Positions 36,360 through 44,829 of a stretch of 48,377 bases of DNA are shown here, piece after piece. Origin of the DNA: a virus. Below the pieces are notes generated by a model. That model ran no database searches. It worked only from the letters and a program-made list of their open reading frames with translations, and had not been told where the DNA came from. Made by a program: the position numbers and the translations under genes. How positions within the stretch are numbered: the stretch's first letter is position 1; each line of letters starts with the position of its first letter. The DNA lies in IMG/VR virus record IMGVR_UViG_3300017773_000019, positions 1-48,377 of that record. One strand, given 5' to 3'.

Positions 36360-36457
36360 TTACTATCTCCAGATAATAGTTTCTCCAATACCTCAAGTCT
36401 TTTCTCAAGGCTCTCTACTTTCTTTCTCAGTTCTTCTAAGTAATAGTTATTGTTCAT
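36356..36457 (-). CDS. Miniature coiled-coil protein, 33 aa
   Basis: 33 residues, nearly all one amphipathic helix: LEELRKKVESLEKRLEVLEK keeps Leu/Val at heptad a/d positions. It is joined by ATGA overlaps to the Na/Pi transporter gene in front and thyX behind, with AGGGAG 6 nt before the ATG, so it is very likely translated. It could dimerise or trimerise and act as an adaptor. Function unknown. Confidence 0.65.
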   Translation of the reverse strand: MNNNYYLEELRKKVESLEKRLEVLEKLLSGDSK

Positions 36458-36885
36458 CCGAATCTCCCTACAAATTTAGCAATGTGATTTACAAAAGGTA
36501 ACAGGCTTAGTGCCATTAAGAGGTTAGCACCTGTATGTACCATAGCAATTCGTAACGTATCACCTCTTGGTATACCATCTGATACAAAGAAACCTGCCAA
36601 CCATATAGTTCCAGTTGTACCTAAGTTTGCACCTAACACGGCTGCTATTGCAGCAGGTAAGGGTAATGCTCCACTAGCCACCAAAGCTATGATTGCAGTT
36701 GTACTTAGAGAACTAGACTGCCAAGCTAGTGTCATGGCTATCCCACCTATAAACATATAGATAGGGTTGCCTAAGAACCATTGTAGATGATCTATGTTAC
36801 CTAGTGACTTCATACCACCACTAAACATCTTCAAGCCTATGTAAAATACTACTAAACCTACTATTATATTCATGTAACTAGTCAT
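36454..36885 (-). CDS. Half-size Na/Pi cotransporter-like protein
   Basis: 143 residues, four membrane helices, one copy of the Na+/phosphate cotransporter repeat: AWQSSSLSTTAIIALVASG with QSSS at 56-59 and VLGANLGTTGTIWL with GANLGTT at 85-91. Full transporters of this family (PF02690 type) have two inverted QSSS repeats in one chain, so this form would need to dimerise. The role could be phosphate uptake during infection, when nucleotide synthesis drains phosphate; that is inference. It overlaps the upstream exported-protein gene and is ATGA-coupled downstream towards thyX. Confidence 0.8.
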   Translation of the reverse strand: MTSYMNIIVGLVVFYIGLKMFSGGMKSLGNIDHLQWFLGNPIYMFIGGIAMTLAWQSSSLSTTAIIALVASGALPLPAAIAAVLGANLGTTGTIWLAGFFVSDGIPRGDTLRIAMVHTGANLLMALSLLPFVNHIAKFVGRFG

Positions 36886-37716: not shown

Positions 37717-37902
37717 TTAGTGTAGTTTTTCACTATACCAATCCCCCCAATTTTGTTCAAGAGCTTCATGAAACTCTGCATTATCAGCTAACAGATAGAA
37801 CAGCTCTGAAAGCTCTTTTCCATATTCATCATGGATTCTTTTTTCCTTAAACACATCACCCCAAAATCTAAAATGTTTTGGTGGTATATCTCTTCTAGTC
37901 AT
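37717..37902 (-). CDS. Small protein after integrase, 61 aa
   Basis: 61 residues, ATGA-coupled to the integrase stop. N-terminus TRRDIPPKHFRFWGDVFKEK is basic and aromatic; the rest is an acidic helix (ELSELFYLLADNAEFHEALE). Size and position directly behind an integrase would suit an excisionase, but I see no clear winged-helix or HTH motif. Treated as unknown. Confidence 0.55.
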   Translation of the reverse strand: MTRRDIPPKHFRFWGDVFKEKRIHDEYGKELSELFYLLADNAEFHEALEQNWGDWYSEKLH

Positions 37903-38783
37903 TGTCTTTGTCTCCTATCCAATGCAGCAGTAGCTGTCTTTAAACTAAATTTGTTATATGGGTTTAGACTAGATACATTCTTATGTCCTGATACAGATTG
38001 TATTGCTAGGTGATCTACACCACTCTCAATCATCTGTACTATGGCGGTCTTACGTAGGTCTCCCACCCTTAACTCAGAGGGCAGTCCTGCTAGGGTTTTG
38101 ACCTCTCCAAGTAGGGTGGTCATCTGAGACACCGTTAGCGGCCTGTAGGCGGTGTCCTGTGGCCTGTGATAGGGTACTACGTATTGTTGGAAGTCCCAGT
38201 CTTCTTTCTGTTCGGATAACATCGTAATTAAATTATCTGGTATTGGTAATTCTACAGTGGCTCCACGCTTTGTCTGAGTTATCTTAACCACAGAAAGATC
38301 AAGGTCAACTGAACTCCAAAGCAGATTACGTATATCTACTGGACGTTGACCCCACTCATAGCACATCAGAACTATCATACCTATGTTACGCCATTTGAAA
38401 TCTGTAAAGGCTATATCTAAAAATGCCATGACTTGATCATGGGTCCATACAACAGATCGGGGATCACTGGTACGTTTGTGTACCCTAGCCATAGGGTTGT
38501 ATAATATCTCATCCATGTTAATTAGGTAATTCATGAGCACAGAGAATACTCTGGAGTTATGATTAGCATTAGACGTAGAGGTGTCTAACTCCCAAGTGTC
38601 ATAGACCTCAGTACAGAAGGGTACAGTCAACTTCTTGACATTGATGTTACCAAGTGTTCTGCCTAGTACAGACATACGACAGAAAGCTGCTAGGCAATAC
38701 TCATAATTCTTTTGAGATGAATTAGACAACGAGTTAAACTGACGAGTTCTAACATATCTATGAACAGCATCTTTAAATTTCAT
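37899..38783 (-). CDS. int: Tyrosine recombinase (phage integrase)
   Basis: 294 residues, with an N-terminal SAM-like core-binding part and a C-terminal catalytic domain. Catalytic residues: Arg147 (GQRPVDI), Lys172 (TQTKRG), Arg244 (VGDLRKTA), His267 (SGHKNV) and Tyr276 (NPYNK). The usual His three residues before the second Arg is Gly241 here. No DNA-arm-binding N-terminal domain is obvious, so it is a short form. It heads the replication operon behind a strong promoter and palindrome cluster, with ribosome site AAGGAG. Integration of this phage is likely but no attachment site was found. Confidence 0.9.
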   Translation of the reverse strand: MKFKDAVHRYVRTRQFNSLSNSSQKNYEYCLAAFCRMSVLGRTLGNINVKKLTVPFCTEVYDTWELDTSTSNANHNSRVFSVLMNYLINMDEILYNPMARVHKRTSDPRSVVWTHDQVMAFLDIAFTDFKWRNIGMIVLMCYEWGQRPVDIRNLLWSSVDLDLSVVKITQTKRGATVELPIPDNLITMLSEQKEDWDFQQYVVPYHRPQDTAYRPLTVSQMTTLLGEVKTLAGLPSELRVGDLRKTAIVQMIESGVDHLAIQSVSGHKNVSSLNPYNKFSLKTATAALDRRQRQ

Positions 38784-38799
38784 GTCATCTCCTTATGTA

Positions 38800-38878
38800 A
38801 ACTTAAAGTTATACTTAAAGTTTCTAATAATACTACTATTATTATTATTATTGAAACCTTAAGTATACTTAAAGTATA
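38800..38878. promoter_or_regulatory. Operator cluster A: ACTTWAAGT palindromes and 13-bp core
   Basis: Sites: AACTTAAAGTT (38800-38810), TACTTAAAGTT (38812-38822), CTTAAGTA (38858-38865) and the perfect 15-bp palindrome TATACTTAAAGTATA (38864-38878), the last touching the -10 box of the integrase promoter. Between them lies AATACTACTATTA (38829-38841), followed by an ATT run. Region 44383-44502 has the same core and palindromes. On the minus-strand transcript GTTTC and GAAAC around the AT run could also form a hairpin. A repressor-operator role is the leading idea. Confidence 0.75.
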
Positions 38879-38912
38879 TAGTACGTATAAGCATTTAGGT
38901 CAAGTGTGTCAA
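38875..38912 (-). promoter_or_regulatory. Promoter(s) of the integrase-replication operon
   Basis: Reading the minus strand: TTGACC (38903-38898), 17-nt spacer, TATATA (38880-38875). A second option is TTGACA (38912-38907), 17-nt spacer, TATACG (38889-38884). Both sit just after the hydrolase stop codon and place the start site within the operator cluster, leaving a leader of about 85 nt before the integrase ATG. This is the only strong promoter seen for the 12-kb minus operon. Confidence 0.65.
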
Positions 38913-38916
38913 GTTG

Positions 38917-39885
38917 TCACATGTATCTTCTTCTAGCATAATCACTGAGATACGTATCATAATCTGAATAATTATCAATATTAGCCTCCTCAATAATACT
39001 CTCAGCAGTCCAACCATAGGAATCCATTAGCTTTGCAACCTGAGCTGGATACTGAGTTATAATAGTTTGTATATCATCTAAAATAGAATTTTTACTAGCT
39101 ACACTATTCCACCCATAGTTGTAGTATCTATTGTCTTCTACTATTAGTGGATCACGAGTAAACACTAACTTAGACCAGTCAGCATTGACTAGGTTTTCAA
39201 CTAAAATGTCAAGGTATTCAAGGTCTTGTGTCTCATTCTTAGTGTGCTGATTGTAGTAGCCAACACTAATATTGGTACACTCGGACACAACGGTTTGATA
39301 CTCATTACTGTCAGTATAAGAGCCATTGTCATCTGCTTTAAGTTGTGGCATATTGACAGCATCAGAGAATGACTTAGCAAAGTCATCAGAGGCTGTACGT
39401 AAGCCCATCTGGTGTGTGATCACAGACTTGTCACCATATCTATCGAATGATATCACTGCGTCGATATGACTCAACCAGTGAAACTTATCATTGTACACAT
39501 AGTCATTGATCAAAGCACTACTACCCCTACAACCAACCTCTTCTGCTGCATGTACTACATAGATACCATTAACACCGTAATCAATCATACTAAGCATTAC
39601 GTATATGCCAGTAGTGCAATCAGCACCGAGACAATTTGACACATTAGAGTCAGCTATTGACACTACATCATTCATAACCACTAGCTTCTGTAAGCCCTCA
39701 GTCTTGTGAACTGTATCATGATGTGCTGTAAAACATAAATTAGGCTTGTCACCCACTATGTGAATGTAGTTGCCATGTATATCAGGTAATCCGAATACAG
39801 GTTCAAGGAACCGTTCACAAAATTCTCGTTGGGTAGCAGTACCCTCTGGGCGTTTGTAACCCAACATTTCTATTAAACTATACAT
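38917..39885 (-). CDS. M20/M28-type zinc hydrolase (aminopeptidase-like)
   Basis: 322 residues. All five metal-site positions of co-catalytic zinc exopeptidases are in order: His55-x-Asp57 (AHHDTVH), Asp89 (GADCTTG), Glu115-Glu116 (AEEVG), Asp148 (SFDRYG) and His214 (YNQHTKNE). It lacks a signal peptide, so it should act in the cytoplasm on peptides, acylated amino acids or related small molecules; the substrate is unknown. The C-terminal 80 residues are extra, acidic and Tyr-rich. Last gene of the five-gene minus module. Phage copies are uncommon in my experience. Confidence 0.82.
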   Translation of the reverse strand: MYSLIEMLGYKRPEGTATQREFCERFLEPVFGLPDIHGNYIHIVGDKPNLCFTAHHDTVHKTEGLQKLVVMNDVVSIADSNVSNCLGADCTTGIYVMLSMIDYGVNGIYVVHAAEEVGCRGSSALINDYVYNDKFHWLSHIDAVISFDRYGDKSVITHQMGLRTASDDFAKSFSDAVNMPQLKADDNGSYTDSNEYQTVVSECTNISVGYYNQHTKNETQDLEYLDILVENLVNADWSKLVFTRDPLIVEDNRYYNYGWNSVASKNSILDDIQTIITQYPAQVAKLMDSYGWTAESIIEEANIDNYSDYDTYLSDYARRRYM

Positions 39886-39886
39886 A

Positions 39887-41440
39887 TTATATATCCATTT
39901 CTTCTTGTTTCATTTCCCAAAGATCATCGGAGTTTAACTCCCAATCTTCATCTAACTCATCTCTAGCCACAGTGTCACCATCGACAGTTTCACAGTACTG
40001 TGATAAAGGGTACAACTGATCATTCCAATCAGAGGTGAAGTACTCGTCAATCTTACGTGGGGATACCCACTTATCCTCAGACTCGCAAAATAGTGCATCA
40101 TCCTCATGCCACCACTCATCATCATCTTCACAATGTACAAAGTGGTCATGCAGACAAGCATTAGATACCAACTGACTTTCTATACCCCATCTATTCTCAG
40201 ACCAAGTAACAGTACCATCATCTATATGATAATCTTCCATAGCATACTCACAGTGAAAGTGTCTCTCCCAATAGCAGTCAGAGCAATATATCTCACCAGT
40301 AGTTTCAGAACTGTAGACATCATCTTCATTCATAGAGCAATCACACATAACGCATGTGTAGCCATTACCAAGAACTCCACCATAATCACTAGCACATATA
40401 TCACCATGATGAGAAACTATGAGATACTCGTCACCACTTATTAATGATTGTGGTTCTAGGTCAAGGTATGGTGCAACATATTGATCCTCACCGTGATGTA
40501 TAGCCTTGAGTTTAGCACCTACCCAACTAGCATCTTTGCTGAAAGTCGCACCAATACTGTTGAGATAAGCATCAATCATGTCAATAGACTGCTCAGACAC
40601 ACCGTAGACAGGGCCAGCTTGAGGAATATTATCTGGATGAGTCATCCACACTACACAACGTGATGCAATGCGATCATCTTGGTCTGTAGTGTACACAATC
40701 TCAAAGTCACCACTGGCATAAGCAGCCACAGGATGTGTAGACAGATGGTCAAACTCATAACGCATACAACTAGCTGCACTAGACTTACGTGACCATGTGG
40801 TGTCTATATTCTCTGTAGGTGATTGCTCATGTGAGTAAGCCTTGATGAAATCATCAGCATCACGAGACTTCCTGAGTGTAAGGTTACGTGGTGCAAACTC
40901 TTGCAAGAACTCATCAACCAAGGTAATAATAGACTTGTGATCAAGCTCAGGAAACATCAAGGTCAAGGCACGTCCAGGTTTCATAGCCACCTGTCTGTCA
41001 TTGTCTCTGTCTTTCTGAGATTGAAAGATAGCAACCTTACCATGTGCAATCTTAGAACGCATAGGCTCAAAGGCAAGTAGCCTGTGTGTAGTTTTAACAC
41101 ATAGCTGTGGACTAGCAAGACCATAGTCATCCATCTTGATACCTATCCAATGCCTAAGTCTACGATCTTGAGCATTGAAGTATTGGTAATCCTCATAGGA
41201 ACCCCATTTGCGTAGAACTAGGTCATCCTCACAGGGATTCTCTACGTACACACGTTTAACAATAAAGCCCTGCAAGCTATGAGATACGAAGTAAAAGCTC
41301 TCACCATTGTCCAGTGTAATCTTACCAGCAATGTCATTGTCATTCCCATGTGACACATTATACACAGGGTAATCCTTGAAGGGTGTCAAGCCCTCTGGAT
41401 AGTCCTCATGTTCTCGTAAATTTGCCATTAAAGCATACAT
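39887..41440 (-). CDS. 517-aa phage protein with Cys-pair zinc-like region
   Basis: Start set at 41440, preceded by AAGGAGTAATACA; the longer frame would overlap the upstream gene. Three parts: an N-terminal domain with VAMKPGRALTLMFPEL; a central block with SCMRYEFDHLSTHPVAAYAS and VVWM that I recall from a conserved phage family; and a C-terminal acidic part with Cys pairs (CVMCDCSM, YCSDCYWERHFHCEYAMEDY, later HCEDDDEWWH and FCESED), like a LIM or treble-clef zinc site. Function unknown. It lies 1 nt before the hydrolase gene, so the two probably act together. Confidence 0.65.
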   Translation of the reverse strand: MYALMANLREHEDYPEGLTPFKDYPVYNVSHGNDNDIAGKITLDNGESFYFVSHSLQGFIVKRVYVENPCEDDLVLRKWGSYEDYQYFNAQDRRLRHWIGIKMDDYGLASPQLCVKTTHRLLAFEPMRSKIAHGKVAIFQSQKDRDNDRQVAMKPGRALTLMFPELDHKSIITLVDEFLQEFAPRNLTLRKSRDADDFIKAYSHEQSPTENIDTTWSRKSSAASCMRYEFDHLSTHPVAAYASGDFEIVYTTDQDDRIASRCVVWMTHPDNIPQAGPVYGVSEQSIDMIDAYLNSIGATFSKDASWVGAKLKAIHHGEDQYVAPYLDLEPQSLISGDEYLIVSHHGDICASDYGGVLGNGYTCVMCDCSMNEDDVYSSETTGEIYCSDCYWERHFHCEYAMEDYHIDDGTVTWSENRWGIESQLVSNACLHDHFVHCEDDDEWWHEDDALFCESEDKWVSPRKIDEYFTSDWNDQLYPLSQYCETVDGDTVARDELDEDWELNSDDLWEMKQEEMDI

Positions 41441-41444
41441 TGTA

Positions 41445-41936
41445 TTACTCCTTCCATTCGGGTTTCTTACCCCAGTTCCAAGTAAGTTTGATGTTACGTT
41501 CTTTCCATCTGTCATTCATATACAGGCGGTAGGCTTGGTGTGTATCACCCATTTCTGAGTAATCAACACCACGTTCTAAATTCCTAGCACAATTAGCAAA
41601 GGGTGTCAACTCCTCACGAGGAAATTCACCACCATCAGCAAATTTTTGTAGTGCAGGTATTAGCTTAGCAGATGCATGGTTGCCAATCTTTTGAGTAAAC
41701 ATCCATGACATATGACTAAGCAACCATACAAAATTAGCACGACTAGCCCTTGCCCACTTACTGCAAGGGTGATTCATGTAGGCAAGTTTATACACTTGTA
41801 GATTAGTGTCAGGATCAAGCCAACGTACAGCAGTAGACAACATCTGAGCAGACTCAAGTATCATCTTATTCTTGCGTATATCATCCAACCACAACGCAGA
41901 TTGGAATGGGCAAGGATCGAAAGCAAATATATTCAT
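41445..41936 (-). CDS. Conserved phage protein, 163 aa, unknown
   Basis: 163 residues with three motifs of a family I remember from large and medium phages: MNIFAFDPCPFQSALWLD then MILESAQMLSTA; NHPCSKWARASRANFVWLL; and a Pro-rich segment with FANCARNL. The family often has CDKHV-x-KM near the start, whereas here it reads LDDIRKNKM, so a possible Cys/His site is lost. GGAG with an 8-nt gap precedes the ATG. It stops 4 nt before the 517-residue gene. Function not known to me. Confidence 0.65.
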   Translation of the reverse strand: MNIFAFDPCPFQSALWLDDIRKNKMILESAQMLSTAVRWLDPDTNLQVYKLAYMNHPCSKWARASRANFVWLLSHMSWMFTQKIGNHASAKLIPALQKFADGGEFPREELTPFANCARNLERGVDYSEMGDTHQAYRLYMNDRWKERNIKLTWNWGKKPEWKE

Positions 41937-41961
41937 TAGGTTTCTCCATGATAATTTCTAG

Positions 41962-41986
41962 GTGTAGCACCATAAAGATGCTACAC
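41962..41986 (-). promoter_or_regulatory. Intergenic stem-loop
   Basis: GTGTAGCA (41962-41969) and TGCTACAC (41979-41986) form a perfect 8-bp stem with a 9-nt loop between the tandem-HTH gene and the 163-residue gene. No T-run follows on either strand. Likely an attenuator, processing or stability element. Confidence 0.55.
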
Positions 41987-42008
41987 TCTGCTGCTATCAT
42001 CACCATTA

Positions 42009-42509
42009 TTAGATATTGTCAATAACATCTTTTAGTGTTTTAATCATCATTCCCATGTCATGTTGTAACTCAATGACCTGAGTTTTGAGATCGACAACCT
42101 CACCCTTGAGCTGACCATTCTGTTGTTTGGTCATCATAAAGTCATAAGACTGACGCTTGACAGCCTGTGGCTGCAAGTGTTGAGTGTATAGGTTGTAGTT
42201 GTAATGTTTATTGCGGTAGCCTAACTTGGTGCGCCACTTAGATATAGTACCTGTAGCGATCCCAAAGTGAGCAGAAGTTTGCTCAAGTGTTTTGTTCTCA
42301 TAGAACTGACAGACCTCATGCTGAAAGCTCATGCTATTTGGATTAGCACCCATCGGCTTAGATGCATAGCCTAACCGCTTGCGAAATCTTTGTAGAGTGC
42401 AAGAAGAAATACCAAATTTAGCAATGGTATCAGCAGTTGTGTGATCATCATAAAAATCACATACAGTTTTCTTGAAAGCCTCGTCGTAACGTACACCTTT
42501 ATTGCCCAT
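42009..42509 (-). CDS. Tandem helix-turn-helix DNA-binding protein
   Basis: 166 residues from the ATG at 42509, preceded by GGAGGTTACA. Two similar HTH units follow one another: FKKTVCDFYDDHTTADTIAK then FGISSCTLQRFRKRLGY, and VCQFYENKTLEQTSAHFGIA then TGTISKWRTKLGY, each followed by (A/R)(S/N)K. The rest is a coiled coil (GQLKGEVVDLKTQVIEL) for oligomerisation. The HTH resembles transposase OrfA or Rep-type domains, but there is no catalytic part. Best read as a regulator; targets could be the palindromes upstream. The long leader (42510-42681) is highly structured. Confidence 0.75.
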   Translation of the reverse strand: MGNKGVRYDEAFKKTVCDFYDDHTTADTIAKFGISSCTLQRFRKRLGYASKPMGANPNSMSFQHEVCQFYENKTLEQTSAHFGIATGTISKWRTKLGYRNKHYNYNLYTQHLQPQAVKRQSYDFMMTKQQNGQLKGEVVDLKTQVIELQHDMGMMIKTLKDVIDNI

Positions 42510-42547
42510 TGTAACCTCCGTTGAATATGGGTTGTGGTATCCAAACG

Positions 42548-42613
42548 ATACCCCACTACACACCACCACCCTAATTGGGAGGTAGAGAAGAATGGCAGTG
42601 TGCAGAGGGGTAT
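42548..42613 (-). promoter_or_regulatory. Long stem-loop in the HTH gene leader
   Basis: Arms 42548-42563 and 42598-42613 can pair over 16 positions with one mismatch and one G-U (outer part ATACCCC with GGGGTAT, inner part CACAC with GTGTG). The 34-nt loop holds a second stem around CCC-AATTA-GGG. It ends about 40 nt before the tandem-HTH start codon, so a cis-acting RNA or a protein-binding dyad is likely. No T-run. Confidence 0.55.
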
Positions 42614-42641
42614 AGTCTAGCAATATGTTATTTAAACATAC

Positions 42642-42674
42642 ATAAGCACCCCACGATCTACATGAGGTGCTTAT
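42642..42674 (-). terminator. Hairpin after the early-type gene, terminator-like
   Basis: A 13-bp stem (ATAAGCACCTCAT with GTGGGGTGCTTAT on the minus strand, two G-U pairs) and a 7-nt loop start 7 nt past the 165-residue gene. The downstream sequence GTATGTTTAAA gives only a weak T-tract, so partial termination is expected. Confidence 0.6.
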
Positions 42675-42681
42675 AGTCTGT

Positions 42682-43179
42682 TTAAGCAACCAGAGCTTTG
42701 AGGGCTTTGATCTTAGCAGATGGTATATCGTCACCATCCTTTAGTCCATCCTGACGACGCTTATCAGCTCTAGCAATCAGAGCACTGATAGCATCGTCAA
42801 GGTTTAATGGTTTGTAATCAGGCTCAGGCTTGAACTCCCAGAACGGTGTCTGGATAGCAGCCTGAGCATCATCAGCACTGATCTTAGTACGCTTGGCATG
42901 ATATGCAAAGCACTTGTCATCAGCGTTCCAGACGAATGTAGCATAAGCCTCCACCCATGCTTTGAAAGCATTGGCACGTCCCATAGCAGGGATAGCATTA
43001 AGCAAAGCGTTCATCTGACGAACAGCAGTATTGACATCATTTGTGTCATGCCACCGACGAACGATAGAGCATCCAGCACGATGAATGTCCGATTGAATGG
43101 ACTGTCCACGTTTGCCAATGCTCACAATCATTTTGTCGATTGCACTATCAGTTTTGATAAGAGTAATTTTAGTAGCCAT
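42682..43179 (-). CDS. Early-type phage protein, 165 aa, unknown
   Basis: 165 residues from the ATG at 43179, preceded by the same GGAGGTTACAATGG as the tandem-HTH gene. Helical N-terminus (IDKMIVSIGKRGQSIQSDIH), a central segment (NALLNAIPAMGRANAFKAWV then EAYATFVWNADDKCFAYHAK), and a basic C-terminal helix (LIARADKRRQDGL). I recall the same plan (about 160 residues, K-A-W-V near the middle) in phages of Alphaproteobacteria near the start of early regions; function unknown. It is the first gene transcribed leftward from the large intergenic region. Confidence 0.65.
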   Translation of the reverse strand: MATKITLIKTDSAIDKMIVSIGKRGQSIQSDIHRAGCSIVRRWHDTNDVNTAVRQMNALLNAIPAMGRANAFKAWVEAYATFVWNADDKCFAYHAKRTKISADDAQAAIQTPFWEFKPEPDYKPLNLDDAISALIARADKRRQDGLKDGDDIPSAKIKALKALVA

Positions 43180-43598
43180 TGTAACCTCCAACGATGTAGC
43201 TAAGTACCACACACTCACCATGAATGTGCAGAAACAAGCTACACCGAGAGCCGTTCGCTAGGCGGCTCTACGGGTCACTAGTCGGTCGGTGGGTGCAAGT
43301 CTCAGCATATATCCCCAAGGCTTATGAGCAGTGACCGCATACGTACTCATAAACACCAACCATATATAACCATAGTCACAGATAACTTAGACGGGTTGAC
43401 AAGTATCGCATGGCACAATTAGATTGCACACTAGCATTGATACGAACGCACCGAATGTTATCTATAACCGCCGCTCTACCGTTCTCCCTAGCACAATTCG
43501 CACTAGGACTTACGACACTATCTTATTGGGCAGCACCAAACCACCACCGATAGAGCTTCTGGCTATGCATAAAGAACAGCATATAATGTAGGATAGAG

Positions 43599-43639
43599 AT
43601 CGGGTTCAAGCGTACTCCCCGATACCACCACAGTATCGG
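43599..43639. promoter_or_regulatory. Two mutually exclusive hairpins
   Basis: ATCGGG (43599-43604) can pair with CCCGAT (43618-43623), or CCGATAC (43619-43625) can pair with GTATCGG (43633-43639). They share the central CCGAT, so only one can form. The layout recalls attenuators or recombinase/replication dyads, but no gene follows closely on the plus strand. Confidence 0.4.
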
Positions 43640-43779
43640 ATACAACCTGTAAAATCTCTAAACTTCTTTTCGTAAAACTGTTATGACATATCCAAACGGG
43701 TTTTACTAGTACCTATAAAGAGATCAATGAAATCAATGACTTAGCCTATAGTATTCAATAACTTGAATATGTTAAAAAA

Positions 43780-43811
43780 CGAATCAGTCCCGATGGATAC
43801 CGAATCAGTCC
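43780..43811 (+). repeat. Direct 11-bp repeats, 21-bp spacing
   Basis: CGAATCAGTCC at 43780-43790 and again at 43801-43811, exactly two helical turns apart, so a protein would meet both on the same DNA face. CCGAAAGTATA (43810-43820) overlaps the second copy and recurs inverted at 44050-44060. Confidence 0.75.
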
Positions 43812-43825
43812 GAAAGTATAGCTGA

Positions 43826-43987
43826 CCTATCCCTTTGGATAGGATATACTTTAGGGTAGCTAACACCTATCCATCGGTATAGGTTGGGCATGATAGTAAT
43901 TCGGATAGGTCAATATCTCATATGGGTAGCGTGATAACTCTTTTGGGACTAGACCTATCCGTTGGTATAGGATAAAGCGTGATAGTA
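43826..43987. repeat. CCTATCC...GGATAGG palindrome array
   Basis: A perfect dyad CCTATCC-CTTT-GGATAGG (43826-43843), a near copy CCTATCC-ATCG-GTATAGG (43866-43883), a half site GGATAGG (43903-43909) and another near copy CCTATCC-GTTG-GTATAGG (43954-43971). Between them GC(A/G)TGATA recurs at 43888, 43929 and 43977. The constant 4-bp spacer marks one dimeric binding protein. Initiator iterons or a repressor array. Confidence 0.75.
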
Positions 43988-44029
43988 CTAAGGGATACAT
44001 CTTTATTGCCAAAGTGTGCAAGCTCTACT

Positions 44030-44065
44030 CTTTCGGGTAGTTTTTCGGGTATACTTTCGGCTATA
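44030..44065 (+). repeat. Triple TTTCGG(G/C)TA tandem repeat
   Basis: CTTTCGGGTAG (44030-44040), TTTTTCGGGTATA (44041-44053) and CTTTCGGCTATA (44054-44065) follow one another with a 12-13-bp period. The third overlaps TATACTTTCGG, the inverse of 43810-43820. Possibly another array for the same control protein. Confidence 0.6.
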
Positions 44066-44305
44066 CAATCAACTATTGTCTAAAATATCTATACTTTTGA
44101 GTATGTTAGAGCTATTTTGTGCCGTAGAAACGCAAAGGTATATGATAGTTTTCTTTTGGACTAGCCATAAGAGCATGGGGGTATGGGCCAGGTGGGGGTG
44201 CGTGGTATGTATATATGCCCAATGCCAGAAATTAGGTTTTTTAAAGGGTGTAACATTATGTAACAATTTGTGATAAAGCTATAATGTCGCATGTTACCCA
44301 CATAT

Positions 44306-44350
44306 TTGTGATCACAAGGAGTTACAAGCAGATATTTTTATGTGATCACA
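44306..44350. promoter_or_regulatory. Two TGTGATCACA palindromes
   Basis: TTGTGATCACAA (44306-44317) is a perfect 12-bp palindrome, and TGTGATCACA (44341-44350) repeats its core 34 bp further on; a degenerate site TTGTGATAAA lies at 44268-44277. They stand just before the rightward promoter at 44372, where an activator or repressor could act. Confidence 0.65.
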
Positions 44351-44371
44351 AAATAAATTTGCATGTACCTC

Positions 44372-44401
44372 TTGACATGGCCGCTTAAAGTATTATATAA
44401 T
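44372..44401 (+). promoter_or_regulatory. Consensus sigma70 promoter of the rightward operon
   Basis: TTGACA at 44372-44377 and TATAAT at 44396-44401, spacer 18: the best promoter in the window. GCTTAAAGTA lies inside the spacer and the 15-bp palindrome AATACTTAAAGTATT (44399-44413) covers the -10 edge and start site, so strong repression is expected. A second possible promoter, TTGACT (44547) with TATAAC (44570), spacer 17, runs into the next start codon. Confidence 0.75.
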
Positions 44402-44502
44402 ACTTAAAGTATTCTTTAAGTAACCTAAAGTTTTTAATACTACTATTAATATTATTAATATTATTAATACTTAAGGAATACTTTAAGTAATACTTTAAGT
44501 AT
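44383..44502. promoter_or_regulatory. Operator cluster B: ACTTWAAGT palindromes and 13-bp core
   Basis: Sites: GCTTAAAGTA (44383-44392), AATACTTAAAGTATT (44399-44413), TTCTTTAAGTAA (44412-44423), a weak CCTAAAGTT (from 44424), TACTTTAAGTA (44479-44489) and ATACTTTAAGTAT (44490-44502). The core AATACTACTATTA is at 44436-44448, in the same plus-strand orientation as in cluster A. The leader of the 44578 gene carries most of these. Confidence 0.78.
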
Positions 44503-44577
44503 GGTGTGCAAATCTTAAATTTCTTTCTGTCGTACCATTTAAAGTGTTGACTTTTACTCCAATACAGGTTATAACTT

Positions 44578-44829
44578 ATGAGTAAAACAAAATTATACTC
44601 GTCTGATAAGGTCATTGAAGAATTTTATAAGGCTTTAGCATCAAGGGACGAAGGTAAACTACGAAGAGTACACATACCAAGGTCTGATGTGTTTTATGTA
44701 AGAGAAAAAATATACCAAGACACAGGCATTAAGTATTCTTTAGACAGAATCGAGAGAGCAATGTACCTAGAGGGTATGCTTAGTGCTTCTGATGTCTTTG
44801 AACCGAATAGAAAGAGAGAATATGGCTAG
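44578..44829 (+). CDS. First rightward gene, small basic protein, 83 aa
   Basis: 83 residues, basic N-terminal half (EGKLRRVHIPRSDVFYVREK) and a helix with RIERAMYLEGML. A weak ribosome site (AGGTT) precedes the ATG; the -10-like TATAAC stands 3 nt before it, so the operator-bearing upstream promoter (44372) is the more likely source of its message. Being first behind the most strongly controlled promoter, it could be a regulator such as a Cro-like protein, yet I see no convincing HTH. Overlaps the holin-like gene by 8 nt. Confidence 0.6.
   Translation: MSKTKLYSSDKVIEEFYKALASRDEGKLRRVHIPRSDVFYVREKIYQDTGIKYSLDRIERAMYLEGMLSASDVFEPNRKREYG

Follow-up and report, generated by a model that had tools for sequence, protein, structure and literature searches.

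What do two similar clusters of short palindromes, set on distant promoters on either side of five genes, do for a virus? The question is raised by a 48,377-bp virus record (IMG/VR IMGVR_UViG_3300017773_000019; the whole stretch is called the window below), whose sequence marks its source as a marine, roseophage-like virus, with Puniceispirillum phage HMO-2011 and Roseobacter phages CRP-2, CRP-9 and CRP-13 among its kin. A first-pass annotation of this DNA had read the clusters, here termed E1 (38801-38875) and E2 (44383-44500), either as sites at which one repressor switches both promoters or as the borders of a cassette that a recombinase removes or swaps. They resemble an on/off switch common to both promoters more than a segment that is excised; by sequence comparison we class them as conserved paired operator arrays of a predicted common regulator, and they probably serve a single sequence-specific factor that coordinates two operons.

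Palindrome arrays at the two main promoters

The genes of the window form two arms, a leftward one with integrase, ThyX, primase-helicase, DNA polymerase A and ribonucleotide reductase, and a rightward one with orf83, endolysin, and coat and structural proteins. The promoter of each arm carries one of the elements, E1 for the leftward genes and E2 for the rightward. The E2 promoter (TTGACA-N18-TATAAT, 44372..44401, plus strand) is a perfect 12/12 match to the sigma-70 consensus, is overlapped by E2, and fires right to drive orf83, the lysis genes and the structural genes. The E1 promoter (TTGACC-N17-TATATA, 38875..38903, minus strand), which fires left into the integrase and replication genes, is weaker than that of E2 and was missed by a strict promoter scan; relatives nevertheless carry a TTGAC/TTGAT -35-like sequence at the matching position. 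The first-pass placement of a promoter under each cluster, one firing left and one right, was borne out.

In both elements, sites spaced by about one helical turn flank an AT-rich core. Read on the plus strand, E1 has ACTTAAAGT at 38801, 38813 and 38867 and ACCTTAAGT at 38856. On the minus strand, the strand of its promoter, these become site 1 (ACTTTAAGT, 38867..38875), with its centre near +1; site 2 (ACTTAAGGT, 38856..38864), 11 bp from site 1; site 3 (ACTTTAAGT, 38813..38821); and site 4 (ACTTTAAGT, 38801..38809), 12 bp from site 3. The intervening core (38822..38855), which contains AATACTACTATTA at 38829-38841, is dyad-like, but its sequence varies across lineages and is not conserved. 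E2 has three exact sites, at 44402, 44480 and 44492, and imperfect ones at 44383, 44413, 44423 and 44469. Its left array (44383..44431, plus strand) comprises GCTTAAAGT at 44383, ACTTAAAGT at 44402, which is centred near +1, TCTTTAAGT at 44413 and ACCTAAAGT at 44423; its core (44432..44468) holds AATACTACTATTA at 44436-44448 together with TATTAATATTATTAATA palindromes; and its right array (44469..44500, plus strand) comprises ACTTAAGGA at 44469 and ACTTTAAGT at both 44480 and 44492, phased at 11-12 bp. Palindromes reach 15 bp in both elements, and one of 18 bp spans 44388-44405. Downstream of E2, a TGTCGT box precedes a second promoter-like sequence (TTGACT-N17-TATAAC), the pair occupying 44524-44575 and abutting the orf83 start; the TGTCGT box occurs upstream of orf83 in 69/69 distinct E2 regions.

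The clustering that the first-pass annotation reported is real. All six exact copies of ACTTWAAGT in the window fall inside E1 or E2, against an expectation of 1.26 in 48,377 bp, a count not attained in any of 100 shuffles. For each element separately, three copies within a cluster were reached by none of 3000 dinucleotide shuffles.

Conservation was assessed in IMG/VR loci recovered with the integrase (80 loci) and with orf83 variants (80, 80, 80 and 54 more, some contigs recurring), sites being defined as ACT-N2/3-AGT palindromes of 8-9 bp or ACCTTAAGGT, and an array as at least two sites. By this measure 47 of 49 distinct regions upstream of the integrase carry an array, compared with 5.3% of windows drawn at random from these loci. 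Of the distinct elements preceding orf83, 66 of 69 have one, and so do 41 of 45 CRP-9-type loci. The palindromes are thus kept where the promoters are, the opposite of what would have counted against a common repressor. Neighbouring sites usually follow one another at 10-12 bp, and the number of sites per array varies. In most genomes the centre of one site lies ~34-38 bp from where the -35 element begins, near a +1 that is inferred from the promoter and not measured; by this prediction, array sites coincide with the RNA polymerase start region at both promoters. Among nine CRP-2/CRP-1-type loci that have their own E2 palindromes, a search for twin arrays gave no convincing E1. In one relative (L149:3724-3907) E2 seems to be tandemly duplicated, giving two array-core-array units.

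Covariation of E1 and E2 within genomes

If one factor reads both elements, their variants should agree within each genome, and they do. Across 17 lineages, the sharing of 8-mers between E1 and E2 was 0.208 within lineages and 0.120 between them, a level that none of 20,000 permutations attained (p<5e-5); with shuffled E1 sequences the corresponding values were 0.021 and 0.019. Site length behaves likewise. When 34 genomes were classed by the majority of their sites, 26 had 9-bp sites at both elements and six had 8-bp sites at both, none was discordant, and two were unscorable. Among the 69 distinct E2 elements, 43 have 9-bp sites only and 10 have 8-bp sites only, while a single element combines at least two sites of either length. 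On the integrase tree the 8-/9-bp label needs two changes, a single change not being excluded. Individual genomes illustrate the agreement: ACCTTAAGGT occurs in both elements of L049, ACTAATAGT-like sites in both elements of CRP-9, and ACTAACAGT-like sites in both of CRP-13. Within a genome, then, two promoters far from each other have a recognition motif in common, as in paired operators. Simple copying seems a poor explanation for the similarity, because arrangement and orientation differ between E1 and E2.

With arrays conserved at both promoters, placed on the start site, helically phased and covarying within genomes, the proposal of one repressor for both promoters gains support. In this scheme one factor, most likely phage-encoded, would bind the tandem palindromes at both main promoters (ACT-N3-AGT in the window phage), with one site per helical turn and one centred on the transcription start. 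E1 would control the leftward integrase, replication and metabolism genes, and E2 the rightward orf83, lysis, terminase and structural genes. Cooperative binding across each array would most likely shut out RNA polymerase, so that, as we propose, repression would set in and lift at both operons at once.

Alternative functions of the arrays

Selection on RNA rather than DNA would offer a different account, in which an AU-rich long hairpin following each promoter alters elongation or mRNA stability, as in nut/put-like antitermination or processing. Each element does follow closely on a promoter, and both could form long RNA hairpins (-20.3 kcal/mol for E1 and -28.9 kcal/mol for E2 in the window), with mean folding z values of -4.3 (E1) and -2.5 (E2), but both strands of E1 and E2 fold better than shuffles. 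Were hairpins selected in both leaders, the transcribed strand should be favoured twice; among 31 genomes the transcript strand folded better than its complement in 25 at E1 and in only six at E2. The lack of a transcribed-strand bias common to both elements is what would be expected if they function as DNA rather than RNA. Moreover, the arrays overlap -10/+1, their site number varies, each unit is a palindrome at 10-12 bp phasing, and the shift in site length, 9 bp to 8 bp, is uniform across the sites, which suits the geometry of a protein on DNA better. We consider a leader function improbable. In the same 31 genomes it tends to be the minus genomic strand that gives the more stable fold, at E1 and E2 alike and regardless of promoter direction, for which local base skew is the sole explanation we offer.

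The arrays might instead be sites for a recombination directionality factor (RDF), a Cox/Apl-like orf83 product that would bind as excisionase at E1, close to the integrase and to an attP in its vicinity, and as autoregulator at E2. In coliphage 186 Apl and P2 Cox systems, arrays with one-helical-turn spacing lie at the int region and, in some phages, at main promoters (PMC7498355). E1 and E2 share this layout, with repeats about one turn apart at the int promoter and at an operon starting with a small protein, as for P2-like RDFs (PMC7498355). Many integrase-bearing relatives also have a complete tRNA-Arg(TCT) between E1 and the integrase (for example L009:9822-9898 and L019:9869-9945), which is absent from the window. 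Unlike the direct 6-bp repeats of 186 Apl sites (PMC7498355), however, the units here are palindromic, and the arrays persist without integrase. For CRP-9 and CRP-13 there is no integrase match, an absence that has been suggested to reflect loss or ancestral absence (PMC8528129), and yet both keep both arrays, each with its own variants, and both have the tRNA-Arg(TCT) downstream of E1. Seven further CRP-9-like loci likewise have both arrays, 3.9-6.6 kb apart, with no integrase match within the fetched stretch. There is, in addition, no mapped attP for this phage group, a genome-contig search for relatives found no prophage, and orf83 belongs to no detected helix-turn-helix (HTH) family. Because the sites are palindromic and independent of the integrase, we do not file them as RDF arrays, and consider this function about as improbable as that of an RNA leader.

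It is very improbable that the arrays are iterons of a replication origin with an AT-rich unwinding region rather than operators: the core is flanked by repeats and E2 lies near the cumulative GC skew minimum, where the two arms diverge, but the skew change also tracks gene direction, and operators better explain why both elements hold a fixed place on a promoter with a site near +1.

The cassette, in which the integrase would recombine the twin elements and excise or exchange the five-gene segment, is scarcely credible. In its favour, E1 adjoins the integrase, a 14-mer occurs in the window as a direct repeat, and gene content between the elements is completely different in L055 and CRP-9. The repeated core that prompted the idea does exist, AATACTACTATTA occurring within the 14-mer once in each element and in the same orientation. 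It is only weakly above chance, though, because 3.6% of AT-rich shuffled element pairs share a stretch of at least 13 bp and because E1 and E2 also share a 13-bp match in inverted orientation; nor is the orientation general, the elements being direct repeats in 14 of 31 genomes, as if at random. A tyrosine recombinase target pair would have a conserved core and a conserved relative orientation, and E1 and E2 have neither. The integrase-orf83 distance is 4.0-7.8 kb in all 30 loci measured, none of which has E1 and E2 joined. Given this spacing, the weak core, the random orientation and the arrays of integrase-less relatives, we rejected removal or exchange of the segment.

Candidate regulators, related systems and neighbouring genes

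For the paired operators, the best candidate regulator is the product of orf83 (83 aa, 44578..44829, plus strand), the first gene of the right operon. It is present at every E2 examined, in part by construction because E2 was located through it, and its relatives are 39-84% identical to the window protein in a 49-row alignment. An AlphaFold model is helical, with a predicted local distance difference test (pLDDT) score of 84.5 and no clear N-terminal ribbon; an earlier model made without remote homologues had low confidence. Fold comparison with the PDB gave no match, and only two close-range matches, both to unnamed or uncharacterised viral proteins, were obtained. The first-pass annotation had named two possible binders, of which the 83-aa protein retains its place with the reservation just given. 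The other, HTH166 (166 aa, 42009..42509, minus strand; PF13518, 1.8e-5), was not favoured and was rejected as a universal regulator, as a profile search found none in L055, CRP-9 or CRP-13, all of which keep both arrays. DBP163 (phrog_624) was also rejected as the universal factor, because it is missing from every 8-bp genome and from the 9-bp genomes L053 and L055. A search of the early genes of L055 and CRP-9 against Pfam returned no recognisable repressor. The factor could well be some other phage protein, at a chance short of even; its identification with orf83 is tentative, and a host protein is rather unlikely. A fuller version, in which orf83 is a DNA-binding regulator outside recognised families that rules the replication and structural operons of a very widespread group of marine phages through the paired arrays, with a dimer geometry switched between 9 and 8 bp at all sites of both loci together, is somewhat doubtful.

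Several points weigh against a common regulator, or against orf83 in that role. The AT-rich core between the half-arrays is not accounted for by operators, and gene conversion between E1 and E2 could partly produce their similarity within genomes. The orf83 protein matches no known domain or HTH family in Pfam or NCBIfam, and no residue in its alignment, inspected by eye, divides the 8-bp from the 9-bp class. Lastly, the searches, which covered only some of the genes, turned up no cI-like repressor.

The closest general parallel is with OL and OR of phage lambda, two multi-site operator regions of one factor that lie on divergent main promoters kilobases apart and have 17-bp sites. E1 and E2 are likewise multi-site, kilobases apart and each on a divergent main promoter, but they have 8-9 bp sites at 10-12 bp phasing, with at least four sites around an AT-rich core, and no CI/Cro relative was recognised. 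Ribbon-helix-helix proteins of the MetJ/Arc type bind tandem operators with short palindromes about every turn, a binding geometry that suits the 8-9 bp palindromes seen here; orf83, however, is predicted to be all-helical, and there was no ribbon-helix-helix protein among the proteins scanned.

Gene order, the orf83 homologue, tRNA-Arg(TCT) and, in part of the group, an integrase are features in common with the HMO-2011-type and CRP-9/CRP-13 marine podoviruses; in CRP-9 the operon headed by gp73, the orf83 homologue, extends over the genes for endolysin, terminase, portal and coat. Phages of the HMO-2011 type and those like CRP-9/CRP-13 have been described as abundant in the sea (PMC9038755), yet we came across no description of operon control in them. 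Three papers on them (PMC9038755, PMC8528129, PMC6918029) mention neither promoters nor repressors nor, where these were looked for, intergenic regions, palindromes or attP, and the arrays appear to be undescribed there. The arrays supply concrete predicted operator sequences and a candidate regulator, and the 8-bp and 9-bp variants form a natural series for testing a co-evolving repressor-operator pair. Control of two operons independently of the integrase also bears on whether these phages possess a lysogenic switch.

The integrase of the window, a 294-aa tyrosine recombinase (37899..38783, minus strand; PF00589, 1.1e-19; phrog_1, 2.4e-38), comes first downstream of the E1 promoter. In most relatives (L009, L020 and L022 among them) a very short conserved reading frame (about MDDPHDDCTHWIGKI) overlaps the integrase start; it is missing in the window. 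The integrases of L174, L065, L068 and L071-L080 have an additional N-terminal region before the part in common with the window integrase. The orf83 of L176 looks chimeric, its first half resembling that of L126 and its second that of L163, suggesting recombination within the gene. The five genes separating E1 and E2 encode an M28-like peptidase, a 542-aa protein, the phrog_624 protein, the HTH protein and a phrog_1448 protein. A long non-coding stretch (43200-44370) has GACCTATCCNTTNGGATAGG-like hairpin repeats at 43824, 43864 and 43952, CGAATCAGTCC repeats at 43780 and 43801, and two copies of TGTGATCACAA at 44307 and 44341. Elsewhere in the window, a 143-aa protein (36454-36885, minus strand) matches the Na+/Pi-cotransporter family PF02690 (2.9e-15) and may be a phosphate-uptake auxiliary gene.

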